A stretch of DNA of 41,263 nucleotides from an uncultured Actinomycetes bacterium (GCA_903873715.1 CAIQPS010000112.1:1-41263); one strand, 5' to 3'; shown: positions 7,537-41,263, numbered from the stretch's first letter. Numbers and translations: made by a program. The notes: generated by a model not told the origin, from the letters alone.

Positions 7537-7571
7537 GCTGTGGAAGTCGAAGCAAGGCATTGGGGGGCGTG

Positions 7572-9989
7572 ATGTACGAGTTCTCTCCGATAGGGCCACG
7601 GGTGGCGCAGGTCCGCCAGACGTACCGGGACAGCATCCCGAGCGTGTGCGTCGAGCGGTTCCTGCTCGTCAGCGAGTTCTACCGGGCCAACCCGACCATG
7701 CCGCCCATGATCAAGCGGGCCAAGAACCTCCTGAACCTGTGCGAGAACGTCACCATCCTGGTGAACGACGGCGAGGTAGTGGTCGGGGAGGTCGGCTCCC
7801 GGTACCGCGCTTCCGCTCTGTTCCCCGAGTACGGCATAGGCTGGCTGTTCCAAGAGATCCGGTCAGGCCACTTCCTCGACCGGGCCCTCGACCCCTATGC
7901 CATGACCCAGGCGGACATGGACGCCATCATGCCCTGGGAGGACTTCTGGGCCGTCAACAACCTCAGCGCCTACACCGACGCGGCGCTGCCGCCCGAGTTC
8001 GCGGACATCGTGGGCAACGGCGTGGTGCAGTTCGGGATCGAACACACGGGCGCGGGACCGGTGGGCCACTTCTGCGCCGGGTACGACACGCTCATCCGTA
8101 AGGGGTTCGGGGCCATCAAGACGGAGGCGCTCGAGAGGATCGACGCCATGAAGGGCCGACTCTACGGCGAGGACGCCCTCAAAGAGGAGTTCTACCGGGC
8201 GGTCGCCATCTGCGCGGACGCCACCATCACCCTGGCCCGGCGCTACGCGGCCGAGTGCCGCCGGCAGGCGGCGGAGTGCACCGACCTCGCGCGCCGCGCC
8301 GAACTCACCGAGATGGCCGAGGGGCTGGAACGGGTGCCGGAGCATCCGGCCCGCACGTTCCTGGAAGCCGTCCAGTCGATGTACATCTACCAGATAGCCA
8401 TGTCGCTCGACGGCAACCTCCACGGGCTCACGTTCGGCCGGGTGGACCAGTACCTGAACGACTTCTGCCAGGCCGACCTCGCCGCCGGGCGCATCACCCG
8501 GGAGAGGGCCCAGGAGATCCTCGACCTCTTCTGCCTCAAGATCGCCGAGATGAACAAGATCTGGCCCTCCTTCGCCACCGAGGCGGCCGGGGGATACACC
8601 AGTGGCCAGCTCATCACCCTGAGCGGGGTCAAGAAGAACGGCACCGACGCCACCAACGACGTCACCTACATGCTCATCGAGTGCGCGCGCCGGCTGCTGC
8701 TGCACGACCCGCCGATGTCGCTGCGCATCCACGAGGGCACGCCCGATCTGCTGTGGGATGCAGCCGTCGAGTGCACCAAGGCCTGCGGCGGCGTGCCCAC
8801 CTTCGAGAGCGACAAGGTCATCATCCCGAACATGCTGCAGCGCGGACTGTCGTTGGAGTCGGCGCGGAACTACTGCCTCATCGGCTGCGTGGAGCCCGGC
8901 GGCTGCGGAGACGACTGGTCGGCCAACGGCGGCCCGGGCCAGGAGAGCTTCTGGCGCATCCCGAGCGCGGTGCTGCTGGCCATCAACGACGGCGTCAACC
9001 CGATGCCGCACTTCGACGGCTCGCCTCAGACCCGCACCGGCCTGGCGACCGGCTACCTCTACGAGATGGAGACCTTCGACCAAGTGCTCGACGCGGTCAA
9101 GCGGCAGATGGAGTACTTCGTCGACTGGCAGGTGGCGTTCACCAACATCCGCGAATCGGTGGCGCGGCACTACATGCCCCTGCCGATCGCGTCGGCTACG
9201 TTCGACGGCTGCCTGGAGAGCGGCAAGGACGTCATGTGGGGCGGCGCCCGCTACAACGGCACGGGGACGGCTGCCGTGGGCATCGGAACGGCCACGGACA
9301 GCCTGGCGGCCATCAAGCACATGGTGTACGACACGAAGCTGGTGAGCGCCCGCGAGTTCTACGACGCGCTCATGGCCGGCTGGGTGGGCTACGAGCCGCT
9401 CCGCCAGCGGGTCATGAAGGAGACGCCGCACTACGGCAACGACCTCGAGTATCCCGACGAGATCGCGGAGTGGATCTCCAAGGTCTACAACGACAAGGTC
9501 CGGTCCTGCGTGGGCATCCGCGGCAACCACTGGTCGCCGGGGTTCTACCCCGTGGCCACGCACGTGGCCTGGGGTAAGCTCACCTGGGCGACGCCCGACG
9601 GCCGCAAGACCGGCGACCCGCTGTCCGACGGGATCTCGCCCATCCAGTGCATGGACGTGAGCGGTCCGGCGGCCACCCTCAAGTCGGCGCTGCGCGTGGA
9701 CCACGAGCGCTGCGGCAACGGCACCTTGCTCAACATGAAGTTCCACCCGAAAGCGCTCGAGGGCGGCGGCAAGGCCAAGCTCATCGACCTCATGCGCACC
9801 TACTTCGACCTGGGCGGCATGGAGCTGCAGTTCAACATCGCCGATGCCGACATGCTCCGCGACGCCCAGATCCATCCCGAGCAGCATCGAGACCTGGTGG
9901 TCCGCATCGCCGGGTTCAGCGCCTACTTCGTGGAGCTGCACAAGCAGCTGCAGAACGACGTGATCCGCAGGACGGAGCTACAGCTGTAG
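7572..9989 (+). CDS. Glycyl radical enzyme of the PFL/dehydratase superfamily, substrate unassigned
   Basis: Oxygen-sensitive radical enzyme, 805 aa, within the normal family length. The active-site loop is IGCVEPGG with thiyl Cys439 and a glutamate two residues later (Glu441). That C-V-E arrangement is shared by choline lyase, glycerol dehydratase and hydroxyphenylacetate decarboxylase-type members, unlike the double Cys of pyruvate formate-lyase. The C-terminal radical loop VRIAGFSAYF carries the predicted glycyl radical at Gly781. Other family segments include SLRIHEGTP, GTLLNMKFHP and ISPIQCMDVSGPAATLKS. The start is the ATG at 7572, with a GTG codon just before it. The frame is open further upstream into the activase gene; I rejected that extension. 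Context suggests an aromatic or phenolic substrate, but this is inference. Confidence 0.93.
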   Translation: MYEFSPIGPRVAQVRQTYRDSIPSVCVERFLLVSEFYRANPTMPPMIKRAKNLLNLCENVTILVNDGEVVVGEVGSRYRASALFPEYGIGWLFQEIRSGHFLDRALDPYAMTQADMDAIMPWEDFWAVNNLSAYTDAALPPEFADIVGNGVVQFGIEHTGAGPVGHFCAGYDTLIRKGFGAIKTEALERIDAMKGRLYGEDALKEEFYRAVAICADATITLARRYAAECRRQAAECTDLARRAELTEMAEGLERVPEHPARTFLEAVQSMYIYQIAMSLDGNLHGLTFGRVDQYLNDFCQADLAAGRITRERAQEILDLFCLKIAEMNKIWPSFATEAAGGYTSGQLITLSGVKKNGTDATNDVTYMLIECARRLLLHDPPMSLRIHEGTPDLLWDAAVECTKACGGVPTFESDKVIIPNMLQRGLSLESARNYCLIGCVEPGGCGDDWSANGGPGQESFWRIPSAVLLAINDGVNPMPHFDGSPQTRTGLATGYLYEMETFDQVLDAVKRQMEYFVDWQVAFTNIRESVARHYMPLPIASATFDGCLESGKDVMWGGARYNGTGTAAVGIGTATDSLAAIKHMVYDTKLVSAREFYDALMAGWVGYEPLRQRVMKETPHYGNDLEYPDEIAEWISKVYNDKVRSCVGIRGNHWSPGFYPVATHVAWGKLTWATPDGRKTGDPLSDGISPIQCMDVSGPAATLKSALRVDHERCGNGTLLNMKFHPKALEGGGKAKLIDLMRTYFDLGGMELQFNIADADMLRDAQIHPEQHRDLVVRIAGFSAYFVELHKQLQNDVIRRTELQL

Positions 9990-28171: not shown

Positions 28172-30421
28172 CTACTGAGCGGGGTTCTTGGGCACGCTCA
28201 CGAGGATCTGCAGGTACAGACCGCTCTTGCTCGACCCGGTGATGCTGATCTTGGTGCCGGTGTGCGGCACTTTCACGCTGTTCCACGGGGCCTTGCTGTC
28301 GTAATAGGTCTTGAGGTCGTTGAACTCCCGCACACCGGCGAGGCTCTGGATCTTGGACACCTTGCTGAAGATGTGCAGGGTGATGGGATCGGTCGGCGCG
28401 ATGGAGAAGGTCGCATCGTAGGACTGGACGCGGCTGCGCCACGGCTTGCCATCGGGGCGTTTGAGCGCCTGCGGATGAGCGTCGACGTAGAGCAGCATGC
28501 CCGTGCCCGGACGGCTCAGGTTGGTGTTGTTGTCCGGGTACTGGGTGTCGTAGTAGCTGATGAGCATGCCGTCCTGGAGCGAGAAGTGCTCCACCCAGTT
28601 GCCCAGGGCCGGGTTGTTCAGGAAGCCGAAGTTGTACGGGCCCACCTGCAGCACCGAGTCGAAACCGGTGTAGGTCTTGTTCTCGGCGATGTAGTAATGG
28701 TGGTAGTCCTTCGTTTCCGAGCCGCTGGTGATTCGGAACCCGCGCATGGTCCATCCGGTGTCGGTCTCGGCACCGTCGACAGGGCTGTCGCCGACGGTCA
28801 CGTCGTCCGCCAGGAAGCCCTTCTCAGAGACGCCGCCATCGGTGACGTACTGGAAGCCGACGAGCAGCGTCTGGCCCGCGTAGGCGGACAGATCGGCGGT
28901 CAGCGGGACCCAACCGCTCGAGAAGCCGTCGATGCCACCCGTGGTCTCGACGCTCGAGTTGGTGAGGTTGCTGGGGATGGCGGTCCAGGTCGTGCCGCCG
29001 TCCGTGGAGACGACCACGGTGGCATAGTCGTAGCCGACCTCGATACCGTAGTTCACCATCGCGGACAGCTGGGGCGAACCAGCCGGGAGGGTGAACTCCT
29101 TGTACATCTTGTTGTTGAGGTTGTCGGCGGAACCGCTGAAGAAGAACTTCGTGCCGGCATACGGAGCGCCGATGTACTCGTTGACGGTCTTGTCCGGGAG
29201 CACCACCACGACGGCTTGTTTGCCGGTGCTGGCGTGCGAGCTCGGGCCGAGTACGTACTGAGCGGTATCACCGGCACCGATAAACGCTGCGGTCCCATCA
29301 TCCGTGTTGATCCAGCCGAGCATGAGCTTCTCCCAGGCGCCGAGACCGTTCGGCTTGGAGCCGAGGTCATGGGTGCCGTCGCTCAGCCAGGAGCCGGAGG
29401 ACATGAGGGTCCAGAAGCCCGTGTCGTTCTCACGGTAGTTGTAGTCGTAGAGGTCCGGGATGCCGAGGTCGTGCGTGAACTCGTGCGCGAACACACCGAG
29501 GCCGCCCATCTCGGGCTGGATGGTGTATTTGCCTACCCAGAAGTCGCTGTCGCCGATCTGGACGCCGCCCATCTCGTTGAAGGCGGGACCCGTTTTGCCG
29601 ATGTTGGCGTAGTAGGCGTACCAGCTATGGCTCCAGATCGCGTCGGGGCCGCCGTTGCCCTCTTCCCCGTCGCCGGCGTGGACGGCCTGGAAGTGGTCGA
29701 TATAGCCGTCCGGCTCGTTGTAGATGTGGTCTCCGTCGAAATCGTACCGGTCGTAGACATCGAACGTGGCCAGATAGGCGTTGATCTCAGCGGTGGTCTT
29801 GCCGTCGTCGATCTGGTCCTGGTACCACTGATCCAGCCCGTCCTGGAGAAGCAGCCAGACGTTGGCCGAGGTGTCCACGTCGCCGCTGCCGTCGTCGTAG
29901 TGCTTGTAGCCGTAGGGCAGCTGAGTCCAGTCGGTGACGTCGCCGTCGACCAGGAACTTGCCGGAGGACTGCTCCTTGAAGTAGTTGTACATCGAGACGG
30001 CGCCAGGCGTGGTGTTGTAGAGGATGTCCTCGTAGTACGCCTTGTCGAAGTTCTCCCAGATGGTCGTGTTGTCGACGGTCCGGTCGGGCTCCGTTGATGT
30101 GTTGTGGAACAGATCCGTGAAGTCGGTGAGGAGCGTCCAGACCCGGGCGGTGCCCTCGTTGGCGAGGTTCACCCATTCTCCGTCGCTGATCTCGACGACG
30201 TCACCTTTGATCTTGCCGTGGAACTTGTAGTCCATGGCGGTCTGCTTGAGCGAGAACTGTTTCTGGCTGAGCGGGTCGGGCCTGTAGTCCACGCGCGCGG
30301 ACTTCAGCGTCTTGGCCCCGTCCTCGGCCGGCATGGCCGTCGCGACCCCGGTGACAGACAGGATCAGGACGACGACGAGCGCGGCCAGCAACCACCAGAC
30401 CTTGATCTTCTTACCTGGCAC
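28172..30421 (-). CDS. Secreted M6 family metalloprotease (immune inhibitor A-like)
   Basis: Extracellular zinc protease, 749 aa. The N-terminus has KKIKVWW followed by a hydrophobic stretch (LLAALVVVLILSVTGVATA) that is a signal peptide. The zinc motif HEFTHDLGIPD starts at His313. The catalytic domain covers about residues 90-400. A C-terminal region with FLADDVTVGD and a YDYATVVVSTDGGTTW-type segment resembles the MAM/jelly-roll part of immune inhibitor A. GTG at 30421 is chosen because GAAGGGG lies six bases upstream and the signal peptide starts there; the open frame to 30481 adds a poor N-terminus. It probably degrades extracellular protein, possibly feeding a peptide importer. Confidence 0.92.
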   Translation of the reverse strand: MPGKKIKVWWLLAALVVVLILSVTGVATAMPAEDGAKTLKSARVDYRPDPLSQKQFSLKQTAMDYKFHGKIKGDVVEISDGEWVNLANEGTARVWTLLTDFTDLFHNTSTEPDRTVDNTTIWENFDKAYYEDILYNTTPGAVSMYNYFKEQSSGKFLVDGDVTDWTQLPYGYKHYDDGSGDVDTSANVWLLLQDGLDQWYQDQIDDGKTTAEINAYLATFDVYDRYDFDGDHIYNEPDGYIDHFQAVHAGDGEEGNGGPDAIWSHSWYAYYANIGKTGPAFNEMGGVQIGDSDFWVGKYTIQPEMGGLGVFAHEFTHDLGIPDLYDYNYRENDTGFWTLMSSGSWLSDGTHDLGSKPNGLGAWEKLMLGWINTDDGTAAFIGAGDTAQYVLGPSSHASTGKQAVVVVLPDKTVNEYIGAPYAGTKFFFSGSADNLNNKMYKEFTLPAGSPQLSAMVNYGIEVGYDYATVVVSTDGGTTWTAIPSNLTNSSVETTGGIDGFSSGWVPLTADLSAYAGQTLLVGFQYVTDGGVSEKGFLADDVTVGDSPVDGAETDTGWTMRGFRITSGSETKDYHHYYIAENKTYTGFDSVLQVGPYNFGFLNNPALGNWVEHFSLQDGMLISYYDTQYPDNNTNLSRPGTGMLLYVDAHPQALKRPDGKPWRSRVQSYDATFSIAPTDPITLHIFSKVSKIQSLAGVREFNDLKTYYDSKAPWNSVKVPHTGTKISITGSSKSGLYLQILVSVPKNPAQ

Positions 30422-30596
30422 GAAGCACCCCTTCCACTCGAACGGTGATTCCCCCCTGCACCCCTGCAGGGCATCCGGCATGCATAACTGGTCTGCATAG
30501 CCGTGATTCGACCCAGACTAAAGAACGATTCGACGGTTTGTCAAATGGTTAGTTGAGTAGGTTCATATTTGACCATTCGGATAACGAGCAGCCCAG

Positions 30597-30625
30597 TTGA
30601 TAGGCGAGTAGAAGACTCATATCAT
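30597..30625 (+). promoter_or_regulatory. Promoter of the arsR1-SQR operon
   Basis: TTGATA (30597-30602), a 17-bp spacer and TATCAT (30620-30625), with the arsR1 GTG 45 bp downstream. It lies in the AT-rich stretch 30520-30650, which otherwise holds no gene. The CATATCATTAAACATG sequence across the -10 is a possible ArsR site. Confidence 0.6.
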
Positions 30626-30669
30626 TAAACATGCAACTACCTGACCGCGAATACCGGGGATGAGGCTTG

Positions 30670-31059
30670 GTGAGCGCTGAAGAACAGCCCCTGGATATCC
30701 GCCCCCTCTTCAAGATGCACGCCACCGTGTGCCAAGCCTTGGCCAGCGAACACCGCTTGGCCATCATGTACAGCCTCAAGGAGAGCGAGAAGCGCGTGAG
30801 CGACATCGCCGAAGAGGTGGGCATATCGGTGCACAACGTGTCCCAGCACCTCCGCGTGTTGCGCCAGGCCTTCCTGGTCCGCCCGCGCAAAGAGGGCCAG
30901 ACGGTCTATTACTCCATCGCCAACCCGAAGTTCATGGACGCGTGCGGGCTCATGCGCCAGGGGCTCATAGAAGAGCATCAGGCGGCCGGCGAGTCGCTCA
31001 GGTGGGCGGCGGGGTACCTGGAATCTCTGGAGGCAGCGGGGGTCCCGGCAGACGAGTAA
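30670..31059 (+). CDS. ArsR-family regulator, copy 1
   Basis: 129 aa winged-helix repressor: ALASEHRLAIMYSLKE, VSDIAEEVGISVHNVSQHLR, and the wing LVRPRKEGQTVYYSI. It has no CxC-type metal site. Its two cysteines are Cys21 (MHATVCQAL) and Cys92 (FMDACGLM), placed near the N- and C-terminal helices that pack together in ArsR dimers. Both are kept in copy 2 at 34243. With SQR and sulfur-carrier genes downstream, a persulfide or redox sensor acting through Cys21/Cys92 is plausible, but the positions differ from those of SqrR/BigR. The start is GTG 30670, with TTG 30667 an alternative. First gene of a five-gene operon ending at the terminator at 34054. Confidence 0.92.
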   Translation: MSAEEQPLDIRPLFKMHATVCQALASEHRLAIMYSLKESEKRVSDIAEEVGISVHNVSQHLRVLRQAFLVRPRKEGQTVYYSIANPKFMDACGLMRQGLIEEHQAAGESLRWAAGYLESLEAAGVPADE

Positions 31060-31102
31060 CGACCGCCGGCAGGCGGTCCGACAGATAGGGGGTCCGCGGT
31101 AG

Positions 31103-32335
31103 ATGAAAAGGCTGCTCGTCATCGGCGCCGGAACGGCGGGGACCATGGTCGTGAACCGTCTCCGGCGGATCCTCGATATCGACGAATGGAAGATCACCAT
31201 CGTCGACCCGGTCGAGACCCACTACTACCAGCCGGGGTTCCTCTTCATCCCGTTCGGGATGTACAGCAAGAACGACGTGCTCAAGCCCAGGCGGGACTTC
31301 ATCCCCGCCGGGGTGGAGATGATCAAGGCCCAGGCGGACGTCATAGAGCCGGACAAGAACCAGGTCAAGCTCATGGACGGCGCCATCCTCCACTACGACG
31401 TCCTCGTGGTGGCCACCGGCACCGACATACACCCTGAGGAGACCCCCGGGCTGGAAGGGCCCGAGTGGCACCGGTCCATCTATGACTTCTACAGCCTCAC
31501 GGGCGCGCAGGCCCTCGCCAAGCACCTGCGCACCTGGCAGGGCGGCCGGCTGGTGCTGAACGTCGTCGAGAACCCCATCAAGTGCCCGGTCGCGCCGCTC
31601 GAGTTCATCATGCTGGCAGACTGGTTCTTCCACGAGCAGGGCATCCGCGACAAGGTGGAGCTGATATACGCCACGCCGCTCCCGGGCGCGTTCACCAAGC
31701 CCATCGCCTCCAAGTATCTGGGTGACATCCTGGAGGGCAAGGGCATCAAGGTGGTACCGGATTTCCTGGTGGAGCACGTGGACCAGGACGCCAAGAAGCT
31801 GGTCCACTACGACGAGACCGACCTGGAATACGACCTTCTGGTCACCGTGCCGCTCAACAAGGGCGACGAACTGCTGGCCCGCTCGGGGATGGGCGACGAG
31901 CTCAACTACGTCCCGGTGGACAAGCACAGCTTCCTGTCCAAGGAGCACGACAACATCTTCGTGCTCGGGGATGCGGCGTCGCTGCCCACGTCCAAGAGCG
32001 GGTCGGGCGCCCACTTCGCCGTCGACTGCTTCGCCGAGAACTTCCTGCGGTACCTGGACGGCCTGGAGACGAACCCGCCCTACGACGGCCACACCAACTG
32101 CTTCATCGAGTCGGGCTTCGGCAAGGGCCTGCTGATCGACTTCAACTACGATGTGGAGCCGCTCCCCGGACGCTATCCGCTCCCGGGCATCGGGCCGTTC
32201 GCGCTGCTGCAGGAATCGGAGATGAACCACTGGGGCAAGATGATGTTCCGGTGGATGTACTGGAACATCCTGCTCAAGGGCCGCGAGATGCCGGTGCCGG
32301 CGCTCATGAGCATGTCCGGCAAATACCCGAAGTGA
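31103..32335 (+). CDS. Sulfide:quinone reductase-like flavoprotein
   Basis: FAD enzyme of the disulfide oxidoreductase fold, 410 aa, expected at the inner face of the membrane, where it would oxidise sulfide and pass electrons to quinone. FAD motifs are LLVIGAGTAGTMVVNRL at the N-terminus and VLGDAASLPTSKSGSGAHF near residue 288. Candidate redox cysteines are Cys161 (IKCPVAP) and Cys333 (TNCFIESG), the pair expected for SQR and flavocytochrome-c-type enzymes. Cys309 is also present. The C-terminus has amphipathic, Trp/Met-rich segments (WGKMMFRWMYWNILL) that could insert in the membrane. It follows arsR1 and precedes DUF1641 and sulfur-carrier genes. Confidence 0.88.
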   Translation: MKRLLVIGAGTAGTMVVNRLRRILDIDEWKITIVDPVETHYYQPGFLFIPFGMYSKNDVLKPRRDFIPAGVEMIKAQADVIEPDKNQVKLMDGAILHYDVLVVATGTDIHPEETPGLEGPEWHRSIYDFYSLTGAQALAKHLRTWQGGRLVLNVVENPIKCPVAPLEFIMLADWFFHEQGIRDKVELIYATPLPGAFTKPIASKYLGDILEGKGIKVVPDFLVEHVDQDAKKLVHYDETDLEYDLLVTVPLNKGDELLARSGMGDELNYVPVDKHSFLSKEHDNIFVLGDAASLPTSKSGSGAHFAVDCFAENFLRYLDGLETNPPYDGHTNCFIESGFGKGLLIDFNYDVEPLPGRYPLPGIGPFALLQESEMNHWGKMMFRWMYWNILLKGREMPVPALMSMSGKYPK

Positions 32336-32345
32336 TGGTGGCGTG

Positions 32346-33068
32346 ATGGACCAGCTACCTGACACCACGGGCGCGGCGGCACGCGCAGCCGCGCCGCCCG
32401 CCGGCGACACCGCCGACCTCGCCGCGCTCAACCAGAAGCTCGACGTACTGTCGGTCCAGGTGAGCTACCTGATCGAACAGGCCCAGGAGACGGCCCGCCG
32501 CCAGCGCGAGCGTTCCGAGCTGATGCACGACGCCCTGCCCATCGCGAACGACGCCATCAACCTGGTGACCGACCAGCTGGCCGAGATCCAGGAGTACATC
32601 GACCTGTCGGACATCCTGCGGGTCACCAAGCGGATCATGCGGAGCGGCCGCACCATCGAGAAGCTGTTCGACCAGGTCGACAGCCTCCTCGACCTCGCGG
32701 CCACGATGGGGCCGCTCGCCAACGATATGGTGGAGAAGGCCTCGGACCAACTGGAGACGGCCGAACGGCGGGGTTACTTCGCCCTGGCCAAGGGAGGCGC
32801 GCGCGCGATAGACCGCGTGGCCGCGTCCCTGACCCCGGAAGACCTCGACTGCCTGGCCGACAACGCGGTGGTCGTGATCTCCGCGTTCAAAGGGCTGTGC
32901 CAGCCGGTCGAGTCGACCTCGCTGCGCTCCCTGCTCGGGCAGATGCGCGACCCTGACGTCCGCAGGGGTCTCGCTGTGGCCATGAGGATGCTCGGAGCCG
33001 TCGGCGAGCAGTCCGCGGCACGCCAGGCCGGTGCGGCCGGACCGGCGGCCGAGTATCGGGCCGAGTGA
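32346..33068 (+). CDS. DUF1641-type protein
   Basis: 240 aa, helical, with Ala-rich ends. The central part, about residues 95-210 (LFDQVDSLLDLAATMGPLAN, LETAERRGYFALAKG, CLADNAVVVISAFKGLCQP), matches the DUF1641 style, a family of unknown function often encoded beside SQR-like flavoproteins. There is no catalytic motif I can name. ATG at 32346 is preferred over the GTG just before it. It starts 10 bp after SQR, suggesting a partner or membrane-recruitment role for that enzyme. Confidence 0.82.
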   Translation: MDQLPDTTGAAARAAAPPAGDTADLAALNQKLDVLSVQVSYLIEQAQETARRQRERSELMHDALPIANDAINLVTDQLAEIQEYIDLSDILRVTKRIMRSGRTIEKLFDQVDSLLDLAATMGPLANDMVEKASDQLETAERRGYFALAKGGARAIDRVAASLTPEDLDCLADNAVVVISAFKGLCQPVESTSLRSLLGQMRDPDVRRGLAVAMRMLGAVGEQSAARQAGAAGPAAEYRAE

Positions 33069-33114
33069 CGGACGGAACAAGACCGAGAAACCCACGATCA
33101 GGAGGAACGGCCGA

Positions 33115-33435
33115 ATGGCTACCCGGGTCATCGCAGGCAAAGAAGTGCAGGTCAACGACGAAGGTTTCATGACCGACGCGACCGAGTGGAACAAGGACAT
33201 CGCCGCGGCGATCGCCGTGGAGGAGGGTATCCCCGAACTCACCGACAATCACTGGAAGGTTATCGACTGGGCGCGCGACCAGGCCAAGAACGCCAACTGG
33301 AAGTCGCCGACCCTGCGTCAGATCACCACCGGCACCGGAGTCAACACCAAGGAGCTCTTCGCGCTGTTCCCCAAGGGCCCCGCGAAAAAGGTCGCGCGGG
33401 TCTCCGGCCTCGGCAAACCCGAGGGCTGCGTCTAG
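33115..33435 (+). CDS. DsrC/TusE-family sulfur-relay protein with a single C-terminal cysteine
   Basis: 106 aa. The DsrC/TusE fold is clear: IAGKEVQVNDEGFM, EWNKDIAAAIAVEEGI, ELTDNHWKVIDWARD, then TLRQITTGTGVNTKELFALF and the flexible arm GLGKPEGCV. The penultimate Cys105 is the sulfur-carrying CysA. The second arm cysteine of true DsrC, 11 residues earlier, is Ala94 here. The protein can carry a persulfide but cannot form the intramolecular Cys-Cys bond used in the Dsr cycle, so it is closer to TusE-like proteins. ATG at 33115 has GGAGGA eight bases upstream. Confidence 0.9.
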   Translation: MATRVIAGKEVQVNDEGFMTDATEWNKDIAAAIAVEEGIPELTDNHWKVIDWARDQAKNANWKSPTLRQITTGTGVNTKELFALFPKGPAKKVARVSGLGKPEGCV

Positions 33436-33497
33436 CCGCCACCGTCACCTCAGGCACACCCGCCGCACACGCACGAAATATTGGAGGGACACCGAAA

Positions 33498-34004
33498 ATG
33501 GCCGACGAGACTCCCCGCCACATAGCGTTCATCTGCTCCAAGGGTGACTTGGACATGGCCTACCCTGCCCTGGTCATGGGCTGGGCCGCCCTCGGCAACG
33601 GGGTGGACGTGAGCCTCTTCTTCACCTTCTGGGGCCTGGACATGGTCACCAAACACCGCATCGACAAGTTGCAGTTGGCCCCGGTGGCCAACACCAGCAT
33701 GAAGATGAGCATGATGATGCCGATGCCCAAGAACTGGGGCATCCCCAACCTCATGGGCATCATCCCGGGCATGACCCGCTTCGCCACCTGGATGATGCGC
33801 AAGAAGATCGCCGCGGTCGGCGCGCCTCCGGTGCGCGAGTACCTCGAGATGATGCAGGACGGCGGCGCCAAGATGTACGCCTGCAAGATGACCTGCGACA
33901 TGATGGGCCTCGGCCAGGGGGACTTCATCGACGGAGTGGTCTCAGGCGTGACCGCCGCGGACTTCATCGACATGACCGAAGGGGCGCAGATCATCTTCAT
34001 CTAG
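33498..34004 (+). CDS. DsrE2-like sulfur carrier protein
   Basis: 168 aa of the DsrE/DsrF/DrsH-like family. It has ICSKGDLDMAYPALVMGWAA, the family-typical LFFTFWGLDMV, a long Met-rich middle (SMKMSMMMPMPKNWGIPNLM), and the probable sulfur-binding loop YACKMTCDMMG with Cys129 and Cys133. Cys13 is also present. DsrE2-type proteins bind persulfide sulfur and exchange it with TusA. ATG at 33498 has GGAGGG nine bases upstream. It is the last gene before the terminator at 34054. Confidence 0.9.
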   Translation: MADETPRHIAFICSKGDLDMAYPALVMGWAALGNGVDVSLFFTFWGLDMVTKHRIDKLQLAPVANTSMKMSMMMPMPKNWGIPNLMGIIPGMTRFATWMMRKKIAAVGAPPVREYLEMMQDGGAKMYACKMTCDMMGLGQGDFIDGVVSGVTAADFIDMTEGAQIIFI

Positions 34005-34053
34005 CCGCCGGACGTGCGGCGGCGCCGGCAGGCGCCGCACCATGGACAGCTAA

Positions 34054-34088
34054 GAAGGGCCGGACTGAGTCATCCGGCCCTTCCTTTT
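34054..34088 (+). terminator. Rho-independent terminator after the SQR-DsrE2 operon
   Basis: An 11-bp stem (GAAGGGCCGGA pairing with TCCGGCCCTTC, 34054-34064 with 34073-34083), an 8-base loop and CTTTT after it. It separates the two sulfur operons and has a GC-rich hairpin-prone patch just before it (34006-34040). Confidence 0.85.
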
Positions 34089-34143
34089 GCCTTGAGACGC
34101 CCCTAAGACGCCGCTAAGACTTCCCTATCGCTCCTTTAAATGG

Positions 34144-34172
34144 TTGACAGCCCGAATATCTATGTATATCCT
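34144..34172 (+). promoter_or_regulatory. Promoter of the arsR2-tusA-hdr operon with ATAT palindrome
   Basis: Consensus TTGACA (34144-34149), a 17-bp spacer and TATCCT (34167-34172). The imperfect palindrome ATATCTATGTATAT (34156-34169) overlaps the spacer and -10. AT-rich ATAT-N6-ATAT shapes are common for ArsR operators, so autoregulation is likely. Confidence 0.7.
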
Positions 34173-34242
34173 CAATCCTGCAAATACGCGATAGAGCAAA
34201 TGCGCAGCAAGTCACTAAGGTTTTCGAGCAGGAGTCGCCCCG

Positions 34243-34677
34243 GTGGATATGCGCCCCCTCTTCAAGATGCACGCGGCGGTATGCCAGGCTCTCTCCAGCG
34301 AGCACCGGCTGGCCATCATGTACGGCCTCAAGGAAGGCGAGCGCCGGGTGAGCGACATCGCCGACGATCTCGGCATCACCGTGCACAACGCCTCCCAGCA
34401 CCTGCGGATCCTGCGCCAGGCACTCCTCGTCCGGCCCCGCAAAGAGGGCCAGACCGTCTACTACTCCATCGCCAACCCCAAGTTCATGGAGGCCTGCGGC
34501 CTCATGCGCGAGGCCCTGCTCGAAGAGCACCAAGCTGAGGGAACGGCGCTCCACGCGGCCGCCGGGCTGTTCGACCCCGTGGCTGCCCTGTCCGTCTATT
34601 ACAGCGCCGTCGACGGCGACCACGATTCTGGTAACAGCCGGGCGGGTCTTCCGAACCCGCCATCGGTTGAAGCATAA
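34243..34677 (+). CDS. ArsR-family regulator, copy 2
   Basis: 144 aa, a close paralogue of the protein at 30670. The two are alike from MRPLFKMHA through KEGQTVYYSIANPKFM to the EEHQA region, roughly three in four residues by eye. The cysteines equivalent to Cys21/Cys92 are Cys14 and Cys85. A 25-residue C-terminal tail with no similarity to copy 1 follows. GTG at 34243 has AGGAG eight bases upstream. It heads the operon with tusA and the hdr genes, whereas copy 1 heads the operon with SQR. Recent duplication with matched operators would let both operons respond to one signal. Confidence 0.92.
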   Translation: MDMRPLFKMHAAVCQALSSEHRLAIMYGLKEGERRVSDIADDLGITVHNASQHLRILRQALLVRPRKEGQTVYYSIANPKFMEACGLMREALLEEHQAEGTALHAAAGLFDPVAALSVYYSAVDGDHDSGNSRAGLPNPPSVEA

Positions 34678-34720: not shown

Positions 34721-34966
34721 ATGGACCTTTCCACACTCAAGGGCGACAAAGTCGTAGACGCGCGCGGCACCTCGTGCCCCGGCCCCATCCTGGCCGCCAA
34801 AAAAGGCATGGCTGAGGTCAAGGTCGGCCAGATCATGGAAGTGCTCGCCACTGACTCCGGCACCCTCAAGGACCTGCCCGCCTGGTCCAAGAAGCTCGGC
34901 CACGACTATCTCGGCCACGTCGAAGAGCCCGGCTACATGAAGCTCTTCGTCAAGAAGCTCAAGTAG
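34721..34966 (+). CDS. tusA: TusA-family sulfurtransferase
   Basis: 81 aa. It has the conserved CPGPILAAKKGM motif with active Cys19 at the start of helix 1, and the two-layer alpha/beta TusA fold (VVDARGTSCPGP, IMEVLATDSGTLKDLPAWSK). TusA proteins hold sulfur as a cysteine persulfide and hand it to partners such as DsrE-type carriers. ATG at 34721 follows GGGAGAAAAG. First structural gene of the hdr operon, so it is the likely sulfur donor or acceptor of the Hdr-type complex and the link to the DsrE2 product upstream. Confidence 0.93.
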   Translation: MDLSTLKGDKVVDARGTSCPGPILAAKKGMAEVKVGQIMEVLATDSGTLKDLPAWSKKLGHDYLGHVEEPGYMKLFVKKLK

Positions 34967-35008: not shown

Positions 35009-35434
35009 GTGACCGCAACAGGGGGGTTCGCCCCGAAGATCCTGGTCTTTTCGACGCACACCATCTCCGATCCGGGTATCGACCTGGCGGGTAGTTCGCA
35101 CCTCCACTACTCGCCCACCGTCATGGTGATAAGCCTGCCCTGCACGAGCGGGATCAGGCCGGATTGGATCACCTACGCCATCGAACAGGGCTTCGATGGC
35201 GTCTTCGTCGCCACGGACGGAGAGGAGTGCGCCTTCCTGCCCAACTGTGCCGAGCTCAGCTCGCACATCGTCAGCCGGGCGCAGGAGATGCTCAAGGAGA
35301 AGGGCTACGAGCCCCGCCGGGTCCGGATGGCAGCCATCTGTTCGGTGTGCGCCGACCCGTTCGTGAACCACATGGCCGAGTTCTCCGCGGCACTCGCCGA
35401 TCTCGGCCCGTCCACCGAGGAGCGTGCCGCATGA
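35009..35434 (+). CDS. MvhD/FrhD-like electron-transfer protein with altered cysteines
   Basis: 141 aa, related to the hydrogenase delta subunit MvhD that links hydrogenases or dehydrogenases to HdrA. The order PKILVFSTHTIS, GIDLAGSSHLHYSPTVMVIS, LPCTSGIRPDWITYAIEQGFDGVFVA matches MvhD. The usual first cysteines (CCNWC-type) are replaced by Ser/Thr. Remaining cysteines are Cys45, Cys74, Cys80 and a CxxC (Cys111, Cys114) in a place where MvhD usually has none, so any cluster is coordinated differently. GTG at 35009 has AAAGGA upstream. The stop overlaps the next gene (ATGA), implying complex formation with HdrA. In Qmo complexes the equivalent domain is fused to QmoB. Confidence 0.75.
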   Translation: MTATGGFAPKILVFSTHTISDPGIDLAGSSHLHYSPTVMVISLPCTSGIRPDWITYAIEQGFDGVFVATDGEECAFLPNCAELSSHIVSRAQEMLKEKGYEPRRVRMAAICSVCADPFVNHMAEFSAALADLGPSTEERAA

Positions 35435-38193
35435 GCGCCGGCAGCGAGACCAAGAAGAAGTACGACGCTCTGGTGATCGGCAGCGGCATCAGCGGCATGG
35501 AATCAGCCCTCAAACTGGGCGACATGGGGTACAAGGTGCTCGTCGTGGAGAAGGAGGGCAGCGTCGGCGGGAAGATGATCCTGCTGAGCAAGGTCTTCCC
35601 CACCCTCGACTGCGCCAGCTGCATCTCCACGCCCAAGATGGGCGCCACCATCCACCATCCCAACCTCGACGTGCTCACGTATGCCGAGGTGGAGAACGTG
35701 CAGCAGAACGGCCGGGGCTTCAAGGTGAAGGTCAAGCAGAAGGCCCGGTTCGTGGACCAGCAGGCCTGCACCGGCTGCCGCCAGTGCGAGATGACCTGCA
35801 AGGTCGCCGTGCCCGACGAGTTCAACGCCGACATGGTGTCGCGGCGGGCGGCGTACATCGCCTTCCCGCAGGCGGTGCCGAAGAAGGCGGTCATCCAGAG
35901 GGAGGGCACCTCGCCCTGCACCTACACCTGCCCGGCGGGCATCAAAGCCCACGGATACGTGGCGCTCACCCGTGCCGGCGAATACGAGAAGGCCTTCCAG
36001 CTCGTGGCCGACGCCACCCCGCTGGTGGGCAGCCTGGGCCGCGCCTGCTACGCCCCCTGTGAAGAGGAGTGCACCCGCGGGCTGCTCGAAGGGCCGGTCA
36101 ACATCCGCAGGATCAAACGGTTCCTGGCGGAGACGCACTACGCCGAACCACGGGTGGCGCCTGAGAAGGCTTCGCCCAACGGCAAGAAGGTCGCGGTCGT
36201 CGGTTCCGGTCCGGCCGGCCTCACCGCCGCCTGGCATCTCGCCCGCAAGGGATACGAAGTCAAGATCTTCGAAGCCGCCCCCCTTCCCGGTGGCATGCTG
36301 CGCCTGGCTCTGCCGCCTTACCGCCTTCCCGGTGAGGTGGTGGACCAGGACGTGGCCAACGTCACCGACCTGGGTGTCGAGATCCAGACGAACGCCAAGG
36401 TGGAAGACCTCGAGGCCCTCAAGGCTCAGGGGTACGACGCCATCCTGGTGGCCATCGGGACCCATCTCGGCACGAAGCTGCGGGTCCCCGGTGAAGATCT
36501 CAAAGGGATCACCCGGGCTACGGAGTTCCTCCGGGCCGCCAAACTGGGCGAACCGCTCGAGGTGGACGGCAAGCGCGTAGTGGTCATCGGGGGCGGCAAC
36601 GTCTCCATGGACGCCGCCCGCACCGCCCTCCGCCTGGGGGCCGCCTCGGTCCAGGTGCTCAGCCTCGAGTCCCTCCAGCAGATGCCGGCCCACGAACACG
36701 AGATCAAAGAAGCCAAGCTGGAGGGCATCACCTTCCGGCACGAGTGCGGCGTGCGCAACTTCGAGGGTGACGGCGCCGTCAAGACCGTCGTCCCGATGCG
36801 CTGCGTGTCGGTCTTCGACGAGACCGGCCGCTTCAGCCCCAAATACTCCGACAAGAAGCTTGCTCCCATCGAGTGCGACCTGGTGATCGTCGCGGCCGGC
36901 ATGCGGCCCGAGTCGGGCGAGTTCGGCCTGCCGATCAACCCGTCCGGCACCATCGTCGTGGGCAGCGACACCATGCAGACCGAGATCCCGTACGTATTCG
37001 CCGCCGGCGACGTCGTGGCGGGCCCGACCATGATCACGAACGCGGCCGGCCTCGGCCGCCGCGCCGCCTACTTCATGGACCGTTGGATGCAGGACCTGCC
37101 GCTCGACTCCTACGACCTGGACACCCCGCTCCCCATGGTGGACAAGCAGGGCGTCATCGGCCGCCAGACCACCTACCGCGAGATCCAGCCCAAGCGGGCA
37201 CGCGAAGTAGTGCGCCTGGCTCCCGGCGAGTTCTATCCCGACGAGGAGACCCTCACCGAGGACGAGATCCTCAGTTGCACCGGCCGCTGCCTCGACTGCG
37301 GCGTTTGCTCCCAGTGCAACTCCTGCGTGGACGTCTGCCCGGCCGACTGCATCGACCTGAACATGAAGGACCAGGAACTCGACATCGACGTGGACACCGT
37401 GGTGCTGGCCACCGGCTACACCCTCTTCCCCGCCGACCTCAAGCCGCAGTACGGCTACGGCAAGTACAAGAACGTCATCACCGGCATGCAGATGGACCGC
37501 CTGCTGGCCCCCACCCGCCCGTTCAACTCGGTGCTCCGCCCGGGCGACGGCAAGGTGCCGGACAGCATCGCGTTCATCCTGTGCACCGGCTCCCGCGACG
37601 AGACCCTCGACGCCCCGATGTGCTCCCGGATCTGCTGCATGTACTCCATCAAGCACAACCAGCTGATCATGGGCGCGCTCCCGCTGGCGGACGTGACCGT
37701 CTACTACATGGACATCCGGACCCCCAGCAAGGGCTACAACGAGTTCTTCGAGCAGGCGAAGGCCATGGGCGCCAACTTCGTGAAGGGCCGCGTGGCTGCG
37801 GTCACGGAGAAGGAGGGCGGCAACCTCATCCTCAAGTATGAGGACATCGAGTCCGGCACCCTCACCGAGACCGAGCACGACATGGTGGTGCTCGCGGTGG
37901 GCGTGCGGCCGAACGATGAAGCCGCTCACCTCTTCGCCGACGGCCTGCTGAAACTGGACGAGTACGGCTGGGTGGGCGAGCGCGACGAGGACATGGACCC
38001 CGGCGCCACCAACATCCCGGGCGTGTTCGTCGCGGGTGCGGCCTCGGGCGTCAAGGACATCCCCGACTCCATCCTGCACTCGGGCGGCGCTGCTTCGCAG
38101 GCCGCCGCGCACATCGAGAGCAACCGGGCGGCGAACGGCGGCGCCAAAGCGGCCGGCGACCGAGCCCCGGAAGTCGCGGAGGTGACGAGATGA
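35431..38193 (+). CDS. hdrA: HdrA-like flavoprotein with an inserted GltD-type NAD(P)H domain
   Basis: 920 aa. Residues 1-155 are the start of an HdrA/QmoA core (VIGSGISGMESALKLGDMGY, TLDCASCISTPKM, ferredoxin motif CTGCRQCEMTC). Residues about 156-560 form a GltD-like unit. It holds the Cys-rich N-domain (CTYTCPAGIKAHGYVALTRAG, CYAPCEEEC), the FAD motif VVGSGPAGLTAAWHLARKGY at about 255 and the nucleotide motif VVIGGGNVSMDAARTALRLG at about 384. From about 610 the HdrA core resumes with CTGRCLDCGVCSQCNSCVDVC and ends in HdrA-type ILHSGGAASQAAAHIES. One chain would join NAD(P)H oxidation or reduction to HdrA flavin and clusters. ATG at 35431 overlaps the MvhD-like stop; the frame is open further upstream but inside that gene. 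Confidence 0.9.
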   Translation: MSAGSETKKKYDALVIGSGISGMESALKLGDMGYKVLVVEKEGSVGGKMILLSKVFPTLDCASCISTPKMGATIHHPNLDVLTYAEVENVQQNGRGFKVKVKQKARFVDQQACTGCRQCEMTCKVAVPDEFNADMVSRRAAYIAFPQAVPKKAVIQREGTSPCTYTCPAGIKAHGYVALTRAGEYEKAFQLVADATPLVGSLGRACYAPCEEECTRGLLEGPVNIRRIKRFLAETHYAEPRVAPEKASPNGKKVAVVGSGPAGLTAAWHLARKGYEVKIFEAAPLPGGMLRLALPPYRLPGEVVDQDVANVTDLGVEIQTNAKVEDLEALKAQGYDAILVAIGTHLGTKLRVPGEDLKGITRATEFLRAAKLGEPLEVDGKRVVVIGGGNVSMDAARTALRLGAASVQVLSLESLQQMPAHEHEIKEAKLEGITFRHECGVRNFEGDGAVKTVVPMRCVSVFDETGRFSPKYSDKKLAPIECDLVIVAAGMRPESGEFGLPINPSGTIVVGSDTMQTEIPYVFAAGDVVAGPTMITNAAGLGRRAAYFMDRWMQDLPLDSYDLDTPLPMVDKQGVIGRQTTYREIQPKRAREVVRLAPGEFYPDEETLTEDEILSCTGRCLDCGVCSQCNSCVDVCPADCIDLNMKDQELDIDVDTVVLATGYTLFPADLKPQYGYGKYKNVITGMQMDRLLAPTRPFNSVLRPGDGKVPDSIAFILCTGSRDETLDAPMCSRICCMYSIKHNQLIMGALPLADVTVYYMDIRTPSKGYNEFFEQAKAMGANFVKGRVAAVTEKEGGNLILKYEDIESGTLTETEHDMVVLAVGVRPNDEAAHLFADGLLKLDEYGWVGERDEDMDPGATNIPGVFVAGAASGVKDIPDSILHSGGAASQAAAHIESNRAANGGAKAAGDRAPEVAEVTR

Positions 38194-40046
38194 CGGCTGC
38201 GAACGGGACCGCTCCGGGCGGCGCCGCCACCACCCCCGGCGCCGGCGACAACGGCAAGCGCCGCATCGGCGTCTATGTGTGCCACTGCGGCGGCAACATC
38301 TCCGACTACGTGGACGTGGACAGCGTGGTGAAGGAACTCGAGGGCGACCCCGAGGTCATCGTGGCGAAGACCGCCATGTTCACCTGCTCCGACGCCACCC
38401 AGCAGGAGATCATCCAGGACATCCAGGAACAGGGCCTCGACGGCATCGTGGTGGCGTCCTGCTCCCCCAAACTGCACACGTACACCTTCCGTGACGTGGC
38501 GCGGCGCGCGGGCCTCAGCCCCTTCCAGTACACGCAGGTGAACGTCCGCGAGCAGTGCTCCTGGACCCACACCGACGACAAGACCGGCGCCACCGAAAAG
38601 GCCAAGAGGCTGGTGAAGGCCGGCGTGGGCCGCACTCGTCTGACGGTGCCGCTCGAGCCCATCGTCGTGGAGACGGTGCCCAAAGCGGTGGTCATCGGCG
38701 GCGGCGTGGCCGGTCTACGGGCCGCCCTGGGCCTGGCCGGCATAGGCATCTCGGCGTTCCTGGTGGAGAAGGAAGCGCAACTCGGCGGCTGGGCCGCCGG
38801 CTTCGGCGAGATGTACCCGTACGGCAAGAACGGTCGGGCGATGGTCAAGGACCTCGAAGCCAAGGTGCGCAGCAACCCCGACATCACGGTGTTCACCAAT
38901 GCCGAGGTCACCGGCAAGGCCGGCAGCTTCGGCAACTACCAAGTCGACGTGCGGGTGCAGCCCGGCGGCGGCAAGGCCCCTGAGACCATCACGGTAAACG
39001 CCGGCTCCATCGTGGTTGCGACCGGCTTCGCCGCCTACCCGGTGGCCGAGGACGAGTTGGGCTACGGGTTGGACGGTGTCATCACCCTTCCCGACTTCAA
39101 GAAGATGCTGGACGGTGCCACCGGCCCGCTCACCTACAACGGCAAGCCGGTGAAGAACATCGCTTACATCTACTGCGTGGGCAGCCGCCAGGACCCGTAT
39201 GAGGTCGAGGGTGGCCACGAGTACTGCTCGCGGTACTGCTGCACGGCCACGGTACACGCTTCCCTCGAGGTGGCGGCGCTGGGCGGGCACACCCACCAGT
39301 ACCACCTGCACCGCGATGTCCGCACCTACGGCAAGTACGAGAAGCTCTACGACGAGTCGCTCAACAAGGGCTCCGTGTACCTCAAGGTGCCGGACGACGA
39401 ACCGCCGGTGGTGACGCGCGACCAGAAGTCCGGCCGCCTCCTGGTGACGACCAAGGACGTCTTGGCCGAGCGCGCCGAGATCGAGATCCCGGCCGACCTC
39501 GTGGTGCTCGTCACGGCCATGGTGCCGCGAGAGAACGAGGAACTGACCAAAGCCCTCAAGCTGCCCATCGGCAAGAGCGGCTTCTTCAACGAGATCCATC
39601 CCAAACTGCGCCCGGTCGAGACGGTCGTGGACGGCGTGTACATCTGCGGCACCTGCCAGCAGCCGATGAATTCCGCGGAAGCGGTGGCGTCGGGCCTGGC
39701 GGCGGTGACCCAGAGCGCCTCCATCCTCAAGCGTGGCTTCGCCGAGCTCGACCCGCTGGTGGCCATGGTCGACCAGAGCCTCTGCACCTGGTGCGGGGCC
39801 TGTGACGAGGTCTGCCCGTACGGCGCTCCGCAGGAGATAGAAGTGACCGGCGCCGACGGCGCGGTCAAGAAGGTCGCCACGATCGACAAGACCGCCTGCA
39901 AAGGCTGTGGCGGCTGCATCCCGGTCTGCCCGGTGAACGCCATCGACCTCGAGGGCTACACCGACGCCCAGATCCGGGCCATGATCGACGGCATGCTCGC
40001 CGAGCCGGGCCTGCCTGGATGCGTGACGCAGGAGGTGATCGGATGA
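38190..40046 (+). CDS. hdrA: HdrA-like flavo-iron-sulfur protein, second copy (QmoB/HdrA type)
   Basis: 618 aa with the standard HdrA plan. An N-terminal domain with VYVCHCGGNISDYVDV and ASCSPKLHTYTF comes first. The FAD domain (VVIGGGVAGLRAALGLAG near residue 170) follows, then the CSRYCC segment. The C-terminus has two ferredoxin motifs (CTWCGACDEVCP and CKGCGGCIPVCP). HdrA flavins can bifurcate or merge electrons in some complexes; I cannot tell from sequence whether this one does. An Ala/Gly/Pro-rich 20-residue leader precedes the fold. The start overlaps the HdrA-GltD stop (ATGA), so the pair is coexpressed and probably forms a QmoA/QmoB-like heterodimer. Confidence 0.93.
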   Translation: MTAANGTAPGGAATTPGAGDNGKRRIGVYVCHCGGNISDYVDVDSVVKELEGDPEVIVAKTAMFTCSDATQQEIIQDIQEQGLDGIVVASCSPKLHTYTFRDVARRAGLSPFQYTQVNVREQCSWTHTDDKTGATEKAKRLVKAGVGRTRLTVPLEPIVVETVPKAVVIGGGVAGLRAALGLAGIGISAFLVEKEAQLGGWAAGFGEMYPYGKNGRAMVKDLEAKVRSNPDITVFTNAEVTGKAGSFGNYQVDVRVQPGGGKAPETITVNAGSIVVATGFAAYPVAEDELGYGLDGVITLPDFKKMLDGATGPLTYNGKPVKNIAYIYCVGSRQDPYEVEGGHEYCSRYCCTATVHASLEVAALGGHTHQYHLHRDVRTYGKYEKLYDESLNKGSVYLKVPDDEPPVVTRDQKSGRLLVTTKDVLAERAEIEIPADLVVLVTAMVPRENEELTKALKLPIGKSGFFNEIHPKLRPVETVVDGVYICGTCQQPMNSAEAVASGLAAVTQSASILKRGFAELDPLVAMVDQSLCTWCGACDEVCPYGAPQEIEVTGADGAVKKVATIDKTACKGCGGCIPVCPVNAIDLEGYTDAQIRAMIDGMLAEPGLPGCVTQEVIG

Positions 40047-40321
40047 GTGCCGCCGAGCACACCCCGGCGACCGGCGCCCCGGCGCCCCGCCCCGTCCGCG
40101 AGATCATCCGCGAGGAGCAGCTCATGCGGGCCCGCATCCTCAGGCTCCTTGAAGACGGCGGCAAGACCATCCCCGAGATCGCGGAAGGCCTCGGCGCGCC
40201 GACGGCCGAGGTGACCTACTGGGTGATGGGCCTGCGCAAATACGGCTGGCTGCGCGAGGACAAAGAAGTCAACGACGAGGGCTACTACGTCTACGAGGCG
40301 ATCGAGAGAGAGAACGCATGA
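40043..40321 (+). CDS. Small winged-helix protein inside the hdr operon
   Basis: 92 aa. A disordered Ala/Pro-rich start (about 20 residues) is followed by a compact winged-helix domain: RARILRLLEDGGKTIPEIAE, GLGAPTAEVTYWVMGLRKYG, and a two-strand wing ending YYVYEAI. It has no cysteines. It is coupled by ATGA overlaps to HdrA on one side and the HdrC fusion on the other, so it is made in step with the complex. It could be a DNA-binding regulator or a structural subunit that reuses the fold. Confidence 0.85.
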   Translation: MSAAEHTPATGAPAPRPVREIIREEQLMRARILRLLEDGGKTIPEIAEGLGAPTAEVTYWVMGLRKYGWLREDKEVNDEGYYVYEAIERENA

Positions 40322-41263
40322 GCACCCGAGTGAACCCGGAACTCGTCGAGGAGCTCGGTCCCTACGGGGCCGAATCGGTGCAGAAGTGCTTCAACTGCGG
40401 CAACTGCACCGCCGTCTGCTCCCTCGCCGAGGAACACGAGAACTTCCCCCGCCGTTCCATGCGCGCCCTGCAGCTGGGCATGGAGGACAAGCTCAAGGGC
40501 GGCCTGGAGCCGTGGCTCTGCTACTACTGCGGTGAGTGCTCCACCTACTGCCCGCGGGACGCGTCCCCGGGCGAGACCATGATGAGCCTGCGCCGCTGGT
40601 TGACGTCGCGCTACGACTTCACCGGCATCAGCCGGCTGTTCTACCGCAAGCCCACGGTGGAGCTCCTCATGGTGATCCTGGTCGCCGTCCTGACGGCGAT
40701 AGGCTTCACGCTGGTGGGCGTCTTCACCGGCAACATCAACGAGTACACCGGCGAGAACGCCTTCCTGCCGGCGCACAGCGTCCACATCTTCGACTGGTGC
40801 ATGGCCGCCGTCCTGCTGGCCTTCCTCATCCCCAACATGGTCCGGATGTGGTGGTTCACCCTCGGCAAGGAGACCCTGGGCAAGGGCCGCACGATGAAAC
40901 TGTCGCCCATGGCCTACCTCAAGTCGGTGTACCAGTTCCCGCTGCACTTCATCACCCAGAAGCGCTACGCCAAATGCGAGCGCAAGCGCCCGTGGGTGAT
41001 GCACCTGGCCCTCATGCTGAGCTACGTCACGATGCTGATACTCATCATGTTCTTCCTCAAGTACATGTGGGCCGGCCCGAAGATCGACTGGCGGGTGCAC
41101 GTGTTCGGCTACATCGCCAGCGCCGGCCTCATCGCCGCGACGATCTGGATGATCGTCGGCCGCATGAAGAAGATGGAGGCGCAGCACCAGCACTCGCACG
41201 AGAGCGACTGGATCTTCCTGATCCTGCTGCTGGTGGTGGCGGTCACCGGCGTGCTGCAGCACA
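40318..41263 (+). CDS. HdrC fused to a membrane cytochrome-b-like domain (QmoC/HdrE-like), 3' end outside window
   Basis: At least 315 aa, running off the window. The N-terminal HdrC domain has two 4Fe-4S motifs: CFNCGNCTAVC and CYYCGECSTYC. From about residue 110 come hydrophobic helices (VELLMVILVAVLTAIGF, IFDWCMAAVLLAFLIPNMV, WVMHLALMLSYVTMLILIMF and more). Histidines in or near them (HSVHIF, PLHFITQ, VMHLALM, WRVHVFGY) are candidate haem b ligands, as in QmoC, HdrE and NarI-type proteins. This subunit would pass electrons between the HdrA pair and the quinone pool. ATG at 40318 overlaps the winged-helix stop. Confidence 0.9.
   Translation, partial: MSTRVNPELVEELGPYGAESVQKCFNCGNCTAVCSLAEEHENFPRRSMRALQLGMEDKLKGGLEPWLCYYCGECSTYCPRDASPGETMMSLRRWLTSRYDFTGISRLFYRKPTVELLMVILVAVLTAIGFTLVGVFTGNINEYTGENAFLPAHSVHIFDWCMAAVLLAFLIPNMVRMWWFTLGKETLGKGRTMKLSPMAYLKSVYQFPLHFITQKRYAKCERKRPWVMHLALMLSYVTMLILIMFFLKYMWAGPKIDWRVHVFGYIASAGLIAATIWMIVGRMKKMEAQHQHSHESDWIFLILLLVVAVTGVLQH

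Follow-up and report, generated by a model that had tools for sequence, protein, structure and literature searches.

Near-duplicate ArsR regulators and a shared operator-like element at two adjacent sulfur operons of an uncultured actinobacterium

Gene Organisation of the Locus

The window (the whole stretch of 41,263 nt that was analysed, CAIQPS010000112.1:1-41263) comes from an uncultured Actinomycetes bacterium whose genome (GCA_903873715.1) consists of 3.33 Mb in 169 contigs; the close relatives with names are uncultured actinobacterial MAGs. Six ArsR-family matches were found in the whole genome. Two ArsR genes lie in the window, both on the plus strand, and each is the first gene of its own sulfur operon, the two operons being adjacent.

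Operon 1 begins with arsR1 (30670–31059; 129 aa, GTG start), followed by genes for a type III sulfide:quinone reductase (SQR, 31103–32335), a DUF1641 protein (32343–33068), a DsrC/TusE-like protein (33115–33435) and a DsrE2-like sulfur carrier (33498–34004), all on the plus strand. The SQR scored 616 bits (cut-off 525) against SQR_III_seleno, the model of the selenoprotein subtype of type III enzymes, yet its gene has no in-frame TGA. A terminator-like hairpin on the same strand (34054–34083; an 11-pair stem followed by CTTTTG) lies between the two operons; the scan that gave it did no better than chance overall (3 terminators found, 2.8 expected).

Operon 2, also on the plus strand, starts with arsR2 (34243–34677; 144 aa, GTG start) and continues with genes for TusA (34721–34966), an FlpD/MvhD-like subunit (35009–35434), HdrA fused to a GltD-like domain (35431–38193), a second HdrA-like subunit (38190–40046), a small winged-helix-like protein (40028–40321; named by reading its sequence, without an NCBIfam match, and kept in the operon) and a QmoC-like Fe-S/membrane subunit (40345–41262; 161.7 bits, below the cut-off of 300) that leaves the window at the contig end. 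This gene content bears out the sequence-only reading, which had placed a sulfur operon behind each ArsR gene. The sHdr cluster of lipoate-dependent sulfur oxidation has the layout hdrC1B1A-hyp-hdrC2B2 with lbpA. Operon 2 has tusA, flpD, hdrA-gltD, hdrA2 and qmoC-like genes; neither hdrB nor lbpA is among its genes up to the contig end, which falls within the operon.

Elsewhere in the window, a long ORF resembling a secreted metalloprotease (28172–30481, minus strand; HEFTHDLG motif) is divergent to operon 1, and, by sequence reading, a glycyl-radical-enzyme-like ORF (6556–9989) is preceded by a radical-SAM-activase-like ORF.

The Two ArsR Proteins

ArsR1 and ArsR2 are 73% identical over 119 aa and 81% identical over a 100 aa core, while over 105 codons they are 79% identical in both amino acids and nucleotides, so that the description of the genes as near-duplicates (core 79–81% identical) holds. 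The dN of 0.13 and dS of 0.90 between them indicate that both copies are under purifying selection. Their recognition helices (VHNVSQHLRVLRQ and VHNASQHLRILRQ) agree at 11 of 13 positions and their wings are identical. Each protein has two cysteines, one in alpha1 and one in alpha5 (Cys21 and Cys92 in ArsR1, Cys14 and Cys85 in ArsR2), at exactly the positions claimed earlier.

Both proteins belong to the ArsR/SmtB superfamily by PF01022 (50.1 and 43.2 bits, cut-off 22) and NF033788 (85.9 and 82.5 bits, cut-off 55), and the fold matches agree. As had been claimed, neither carries a classic metal-binding motif. The alpha3 CxC/CxG box of alpha3N metal sensors such as ArsR, CadC and SmtB is absent (EKRVSD or ERRVSD stands there, RVS replacing CVC/CVG), as are their N-terminal cysteines, since no cysteine precedes alpha1 in either protein, and the residues aligned with the site DxH(10)HxxE/H on alpha5 of CzrA and SmtB are N78, K80, A91 and E94. 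The vicinal alpha3 cysteines of RexT type are replaced by KR and RR. Scores against the TsoR model NF045707 (57.4 and 50.7 bits) were under its cut-off of 115, and 43.5 bits against the BigR model was far below its cut-off of 155. In an ungapped structural alignment, and in the sequence alignment, SqrR C41 and C107 correspond to Tyr27 and Leu93 of ArsR2, so that the alpha2/alpha5 positions used by SqrR, BigR, SoxR and sHdrR hold no cysteine in this protein. On these cysteine positions, motifs and model scores, the two proteins were excluded from the SqrR/BigR, metal-sensor, RexT and TsoR groups. The closest solved sequence is Rv0081 of Mycobacterium tuberculosis (E 2e-10), which has Phe at the C14 position and belongs to an uncharacterised cluster linked to hypoxia.

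Promoters and a Shared 22 bp Element

Three promoters were found in a scan of the region, against 0.7 expected. Each ArsR gene has its own, as the sequence-only reading had it: TTGATA-17-TATCAT before arsR1 (30597–30625, plus strand; 10 of 12 consensus matches, with the same architecture in relatives) and TTGACA-17-TATCCT before arsR2 (34144–34172, plus strand), both by consensus scan. One 22 bp operator-like element is present before both genes on the plus strand and overlaps the −10 box in each case (CATATCATTAAACATGCAACTA at 30618–30639 and TATATCCTCAATCCTGCAAATA at 34165–34186). It contains a weak dyad, TATnT-N12-AnATA, of which the pairs 2:21, 3:20 and 5:18 are retained in 17–20 of 20 sites, and the upstream regions of relatives contain TTGAC-N17-TATATAAGCAATCATGCAAATA.

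With a scoring matrix built from the relatives only, the window being left out, the two elements outranked all others of the roughly 82,000 window positions, at 26.0 bits (arsR2, rank 1) and 21.0 bits (arsR1, rank 2), and the third-best position reached only 2.4 bits; the match is well beyond chance. The relatives' own elements scored 15–44 bits with leave-one-out matrices. A pattern made from both window elements matched nowhere else in the 3.33 Mb genome when up to two mismatches were allowed, and at three mismatches gave two extra matches against one for the control.

In most relatives, the element includes an ATG in the ArsR reading frame, near the expected transcription start, which may serve as a leaderless start. 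Conservation of the element among relatives is partly owed to promoter and start codon. The ATG is lost in arsR2 and in two relatives (G004, G001) while CAAATA is retained, which argues that the DNA itself is conserved, beyond coding. Before arsR1, the ATG of the element opens a ten-codon frame, MQLPDREYRG* (30631–30663, plus strand), in frame with arsR1 and closed by an in-frame TGA; this leader is apparently a remnant of the MQIxD start, putatively leaderless, that most relatives have. Selenocysteine at the leader TGA (30661–30663) was considered and rejected: the downstream RNA folds worse than its shuffles (z +1.34), no SECIS-like fold follows the TGA, and relatives lack a cysteine at that place. 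SelB is encoded in the genome.

The ATAT-type palindrome noted earlier over the second −10 is not conserved in relatives, but the conserved 22 bp element overlaps it. Joint control of the two operons, as first proposed, gains support from the element, which lies inside both of the promoter regions then named. Being shared, rare and top-ranked, it makes an auto- and cross-regulated two-operon circuit well supported, in which repression and cross-regulation themselves are predicted from sequence. With recognition helices and wings that scarcely differ, ArsR1 and ArsR2 are each expected to bind the element of either operon. Separate tuning of the operons, the purpose suggested for the duplication, is possible in that the elements differ in score (26.0 against 21.0 bits), but with such similar helices and wings cross-regulation is at least as likely.

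Origin of the Duplicate

Homologues were sought in 60 relatives and 399 genomes of the class. Close (hdr-type) homologues occur in 17 other genomes, nearly all directly 5′ of tusA-flpD-hdrA, and no sqr cassette adjoined the hdr-type arsR of relatives within the locus stretches compared. The nearest sqr-DUF1641-dsrC-dsrE2 cassettes, in genomes G003 and G007 (SQR 79% identical), have neither such an arsR alongside nor the operator element. In a maximum-likelihood tree of 27 sequences, arsR1 and arsR2 are sisters (support 97/84), with the gene of G004 next. An alpha3 cysteine present in 18 of 20 hdr-type relatives is Arg in both window copies. From the sister placement, the shared Arg and the lack of a copy before the sqr cassette in relatives, arsR1 is most simply explained as a copy that arose in tandem within this lineage and came to stand before the sqr cassette. 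The duplication first noticed from the window is thus real and lineage-specific. Joint acquisition of arsR1 and the sqr cassette by horizontal transfer was rejected, given the bare cassettes of G003 and G007 and the pairing of arsR1 with arsR2 in the tree.

Conservation and Position of the Cysteines

Both cysteines are present in 22 of 22 hdr-type genes (18 genomes), confirming that the pair is conserved, and both are also invariant in a sister group adjoining SQR/DsrE/NifS/GcvH-like genes. Among 101 homologues in the class (a few rows being the same gene twice), both cysteines are present in 40, C14 alone in 26, C85 alone in 19 and neither in 16. Strict co-occurrence fails at this scale (Fisher p 0.67), and since each cysteine is found alone, an obligate pair is unsupported in the wider family. 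Most holders of C14 are adjoined by sulfur genes, the neighbours in homologue loci being TusA-FlpD-HdrA or SQR/DsrE/NifS; the link is suggestive only, because the query set was assembled from C14-bearing loci and the association is biased accordingly. Some homologues with F14 have OsmC-like, methyltransferase, nitrite/sulfite-reductase-like and other neighbours (read by eye), and C85 also occurs in groups for which no sulfur neighbours were found.

C14 aligns with SmtB F40, CzrA F20, CadC L36 and HlyU L25, which are alpha1 residues that contact their own counterparts in the symmetry mate of the dimer (PMC1665450). Cys14/21 thus maps to the alpha1 residue predicted to touch its own mate at the dimer axis. 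In alpha5, A84 aligns with the self-contacts HlyU M95, SmtB L110 and CadC I107 (PMC1665450), with a one-residue uncertainty for CzrA and SmtB and an ungapped alignment for HlyU. C85 is the next residue and would lie beside the alpha5 self-contact rather than on it; on our helix wheel, it is estimated to point sideways of the alpha5-alpha5′ contact, not straight at it. The AlphaFold2 monomer model has the cysteines in helices 4–16 and 79–109, with mean pLDDT of 89–96 for blocks of residues 11–80 and 80 for residues 81–90.

In three draft genomes, a homologous ArsR is joined to another domain, although such fusions could be errors. One ORF (G017, L038:7950-8681; 243 aa) has ArsR and TusA in one stop-free frame and, if real, is a natural fusion of sensor and sulfurtransferase. 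In two others (G009, L056:9629-10540; G014, L021), an ArsR of the C14/C85 type is fused to a glycine-cleavage-H-like, lipoate-binding-like domain (GCV_H) and adjoins a small DsrE-like gene. Both kinds of fusion would point the same way as the sulfur neighbourhood. Persulfide sensing by ArsR1 and ArsR2 appears plausible, because the cysteines are invariant in the clade, sulfur genes are neighbours, and one homologue forms an in-frame ArsR-TusA ORF.

Comparison with Known Systems

Hyphomicrobium denitrificans has two related ArsR repressors of sulfur genes, sHdrR and SoxR, both of which carry a conserved pair of cysteines; besides binding DNA upstream of its own gene, sHdrR also recognises a sox promoter region (PMC12423496, PMC10451225). 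These cysteines are missing from many ArsR proteins linked to shdr genes, which may have other modes of action (PMC12423496). The window pair is similar in being related ArsR proteins linked to sulfur genes with two conserved cysteines each, but Cys50/Cys116 of sHdrR and SoxR are of the alpha2/alpha5 type whereas those of the window are in alpha1 and alpha5 near the dimer axis, and sHdrR and SoxR have not been described as recent duplicates lying side by side. SqrR, BigR, HlyU and YgaV make up SSN cluster 4 (PMC10509353) and share with ArsR1 and ArsR2 the fold (Z 11–12 for SqrR, 13 for HlyU), sulfide genes and two cysteines, but in different positions. The thiol-based ArsR switches RexT/CyeR (PMC8960804) use Cys40-Cys41 in alpha3, where the window copies have no cysteine. 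Literature searches on TsoR, or on a thiol sensor with an alpha1/alpha5 site, turned up nothing of use.

Proposed Mechanism and Alternatives

In the mechanism we propose, which as a whole has about an even chance of being right, ArsR1 and ArsR2 are autoregulatory duplicate repressors with a single operator specificity, released by sulfur through a cysteine pair at or beside the dimer axis. As homodimers, and possibly heterodimers, they would sit on the 22 bp element, covering the −10 box and the presumed start of transcription, and so block both operons. Sulfane sulfur, made by SQR or carried by DsrE2 or TusA, would modify Cys21/14 and Cys92/85, the release signal being sulfane sulfur or persulfide supplied by TusA, by DsrE2 or by small persulfides. 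In the simplest case, the modified cysteines would form a disulfide or polysulfide between the two protomers at the axis; the modification would displace the DNA-reading heads, and we infer that release would couple sulfide oxidation (operon 1) to an Hdr/Qmo-like electron route (operon 2).

Known ArsR sulfur sensors form a two-cysteine polysulfide bridge (PMC10509353), and the cysteine bridge put forward in the sequence-only reading is taken here as a SqrR-like one within one subunit, from Cys21/14 in alpha1 to Cys92/85 in alpha5. The invariance of both cysteines in the clade fits such a bridge, and as both map near the axis they may be close to each other. It is weakened by the difference between these positions and those of the known alpha2/alpha5 pair, by the occurrence of each cysteine alone in the wider family, and by homology, according to which the cysteine nearest C14 is C14′ of its own mate. 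From the mapped positions, an interprotomer switch seems at least as likely as a bridge within the protomer, which we regard as unlikely. The cysteines could instead be structural, or generic redox thiols answering to peroxide or disulfide stress, with the repressors responding to a signal other than sulfane sulfur: C14 replaces a dimer-core Phe or Leu and may be tolerated as a hydrophobic residue, and C85 also turns up in groups for which no sulfur neighbours came to light. The invariance across the hdr-type genes, and the sulfur genes beside most C14 homologues (in the biased query set), argue against this reading, which we consider rather improbable. Least probable, and very unlikely in our view, is that two C14 and two C85 form a four-cysteine axis site that holds an Fe-S cluster, or else a metal or metalloid of thiophilic kind; the proteins would then be cluster- or metal-sensing repressors of sulfur metabolism. 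Both positions map on or beside the axis, Fe-S flavoproteins abound in the operons, and the extra alpha3 cysteine of relatives is at the position of SmtB C61 and CadC C58; against these points, C85 is beside the self-contact position and neither window copy has kept the alpha3 cysteine. We know of no ArsR protein that uses such a site.

Characterised ArsR sulfur sensors rely on one alpha2/alpha5 cysteine pair, and this clade presents a concrete candidate for an alternative site. Tentatively, and with the odds against it, the clade may represent a new class of ArsR sensor site, in which axis cysteines forming an interprotomer polysulfide or four-thiol site control actinobacterial TusA-Hdr/Qmo and SQR-DsrC operons, the regulator being fused in one relative to its likely donor, TusA. 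That fusion hints at a direct route from donor to sensor, and the lineage offers a defined candidate operator together with a natural duplicate pair and a two-site regulon.

Further ArsR Genes in Relatives

The closest relative (G004, L039:8616-8948) has vicinal cysteines, GECCVTD, near the alpha3 position of those in RexT, neither of which is retained in ArsR1 or ArsR2. In G034 (L051:9081-9449), and also in G430, a second, divergent ArsR with the alpha1 cysteine only lies beside the arsR-tusA operon, a further case of paired ArsR genes at such an operon.
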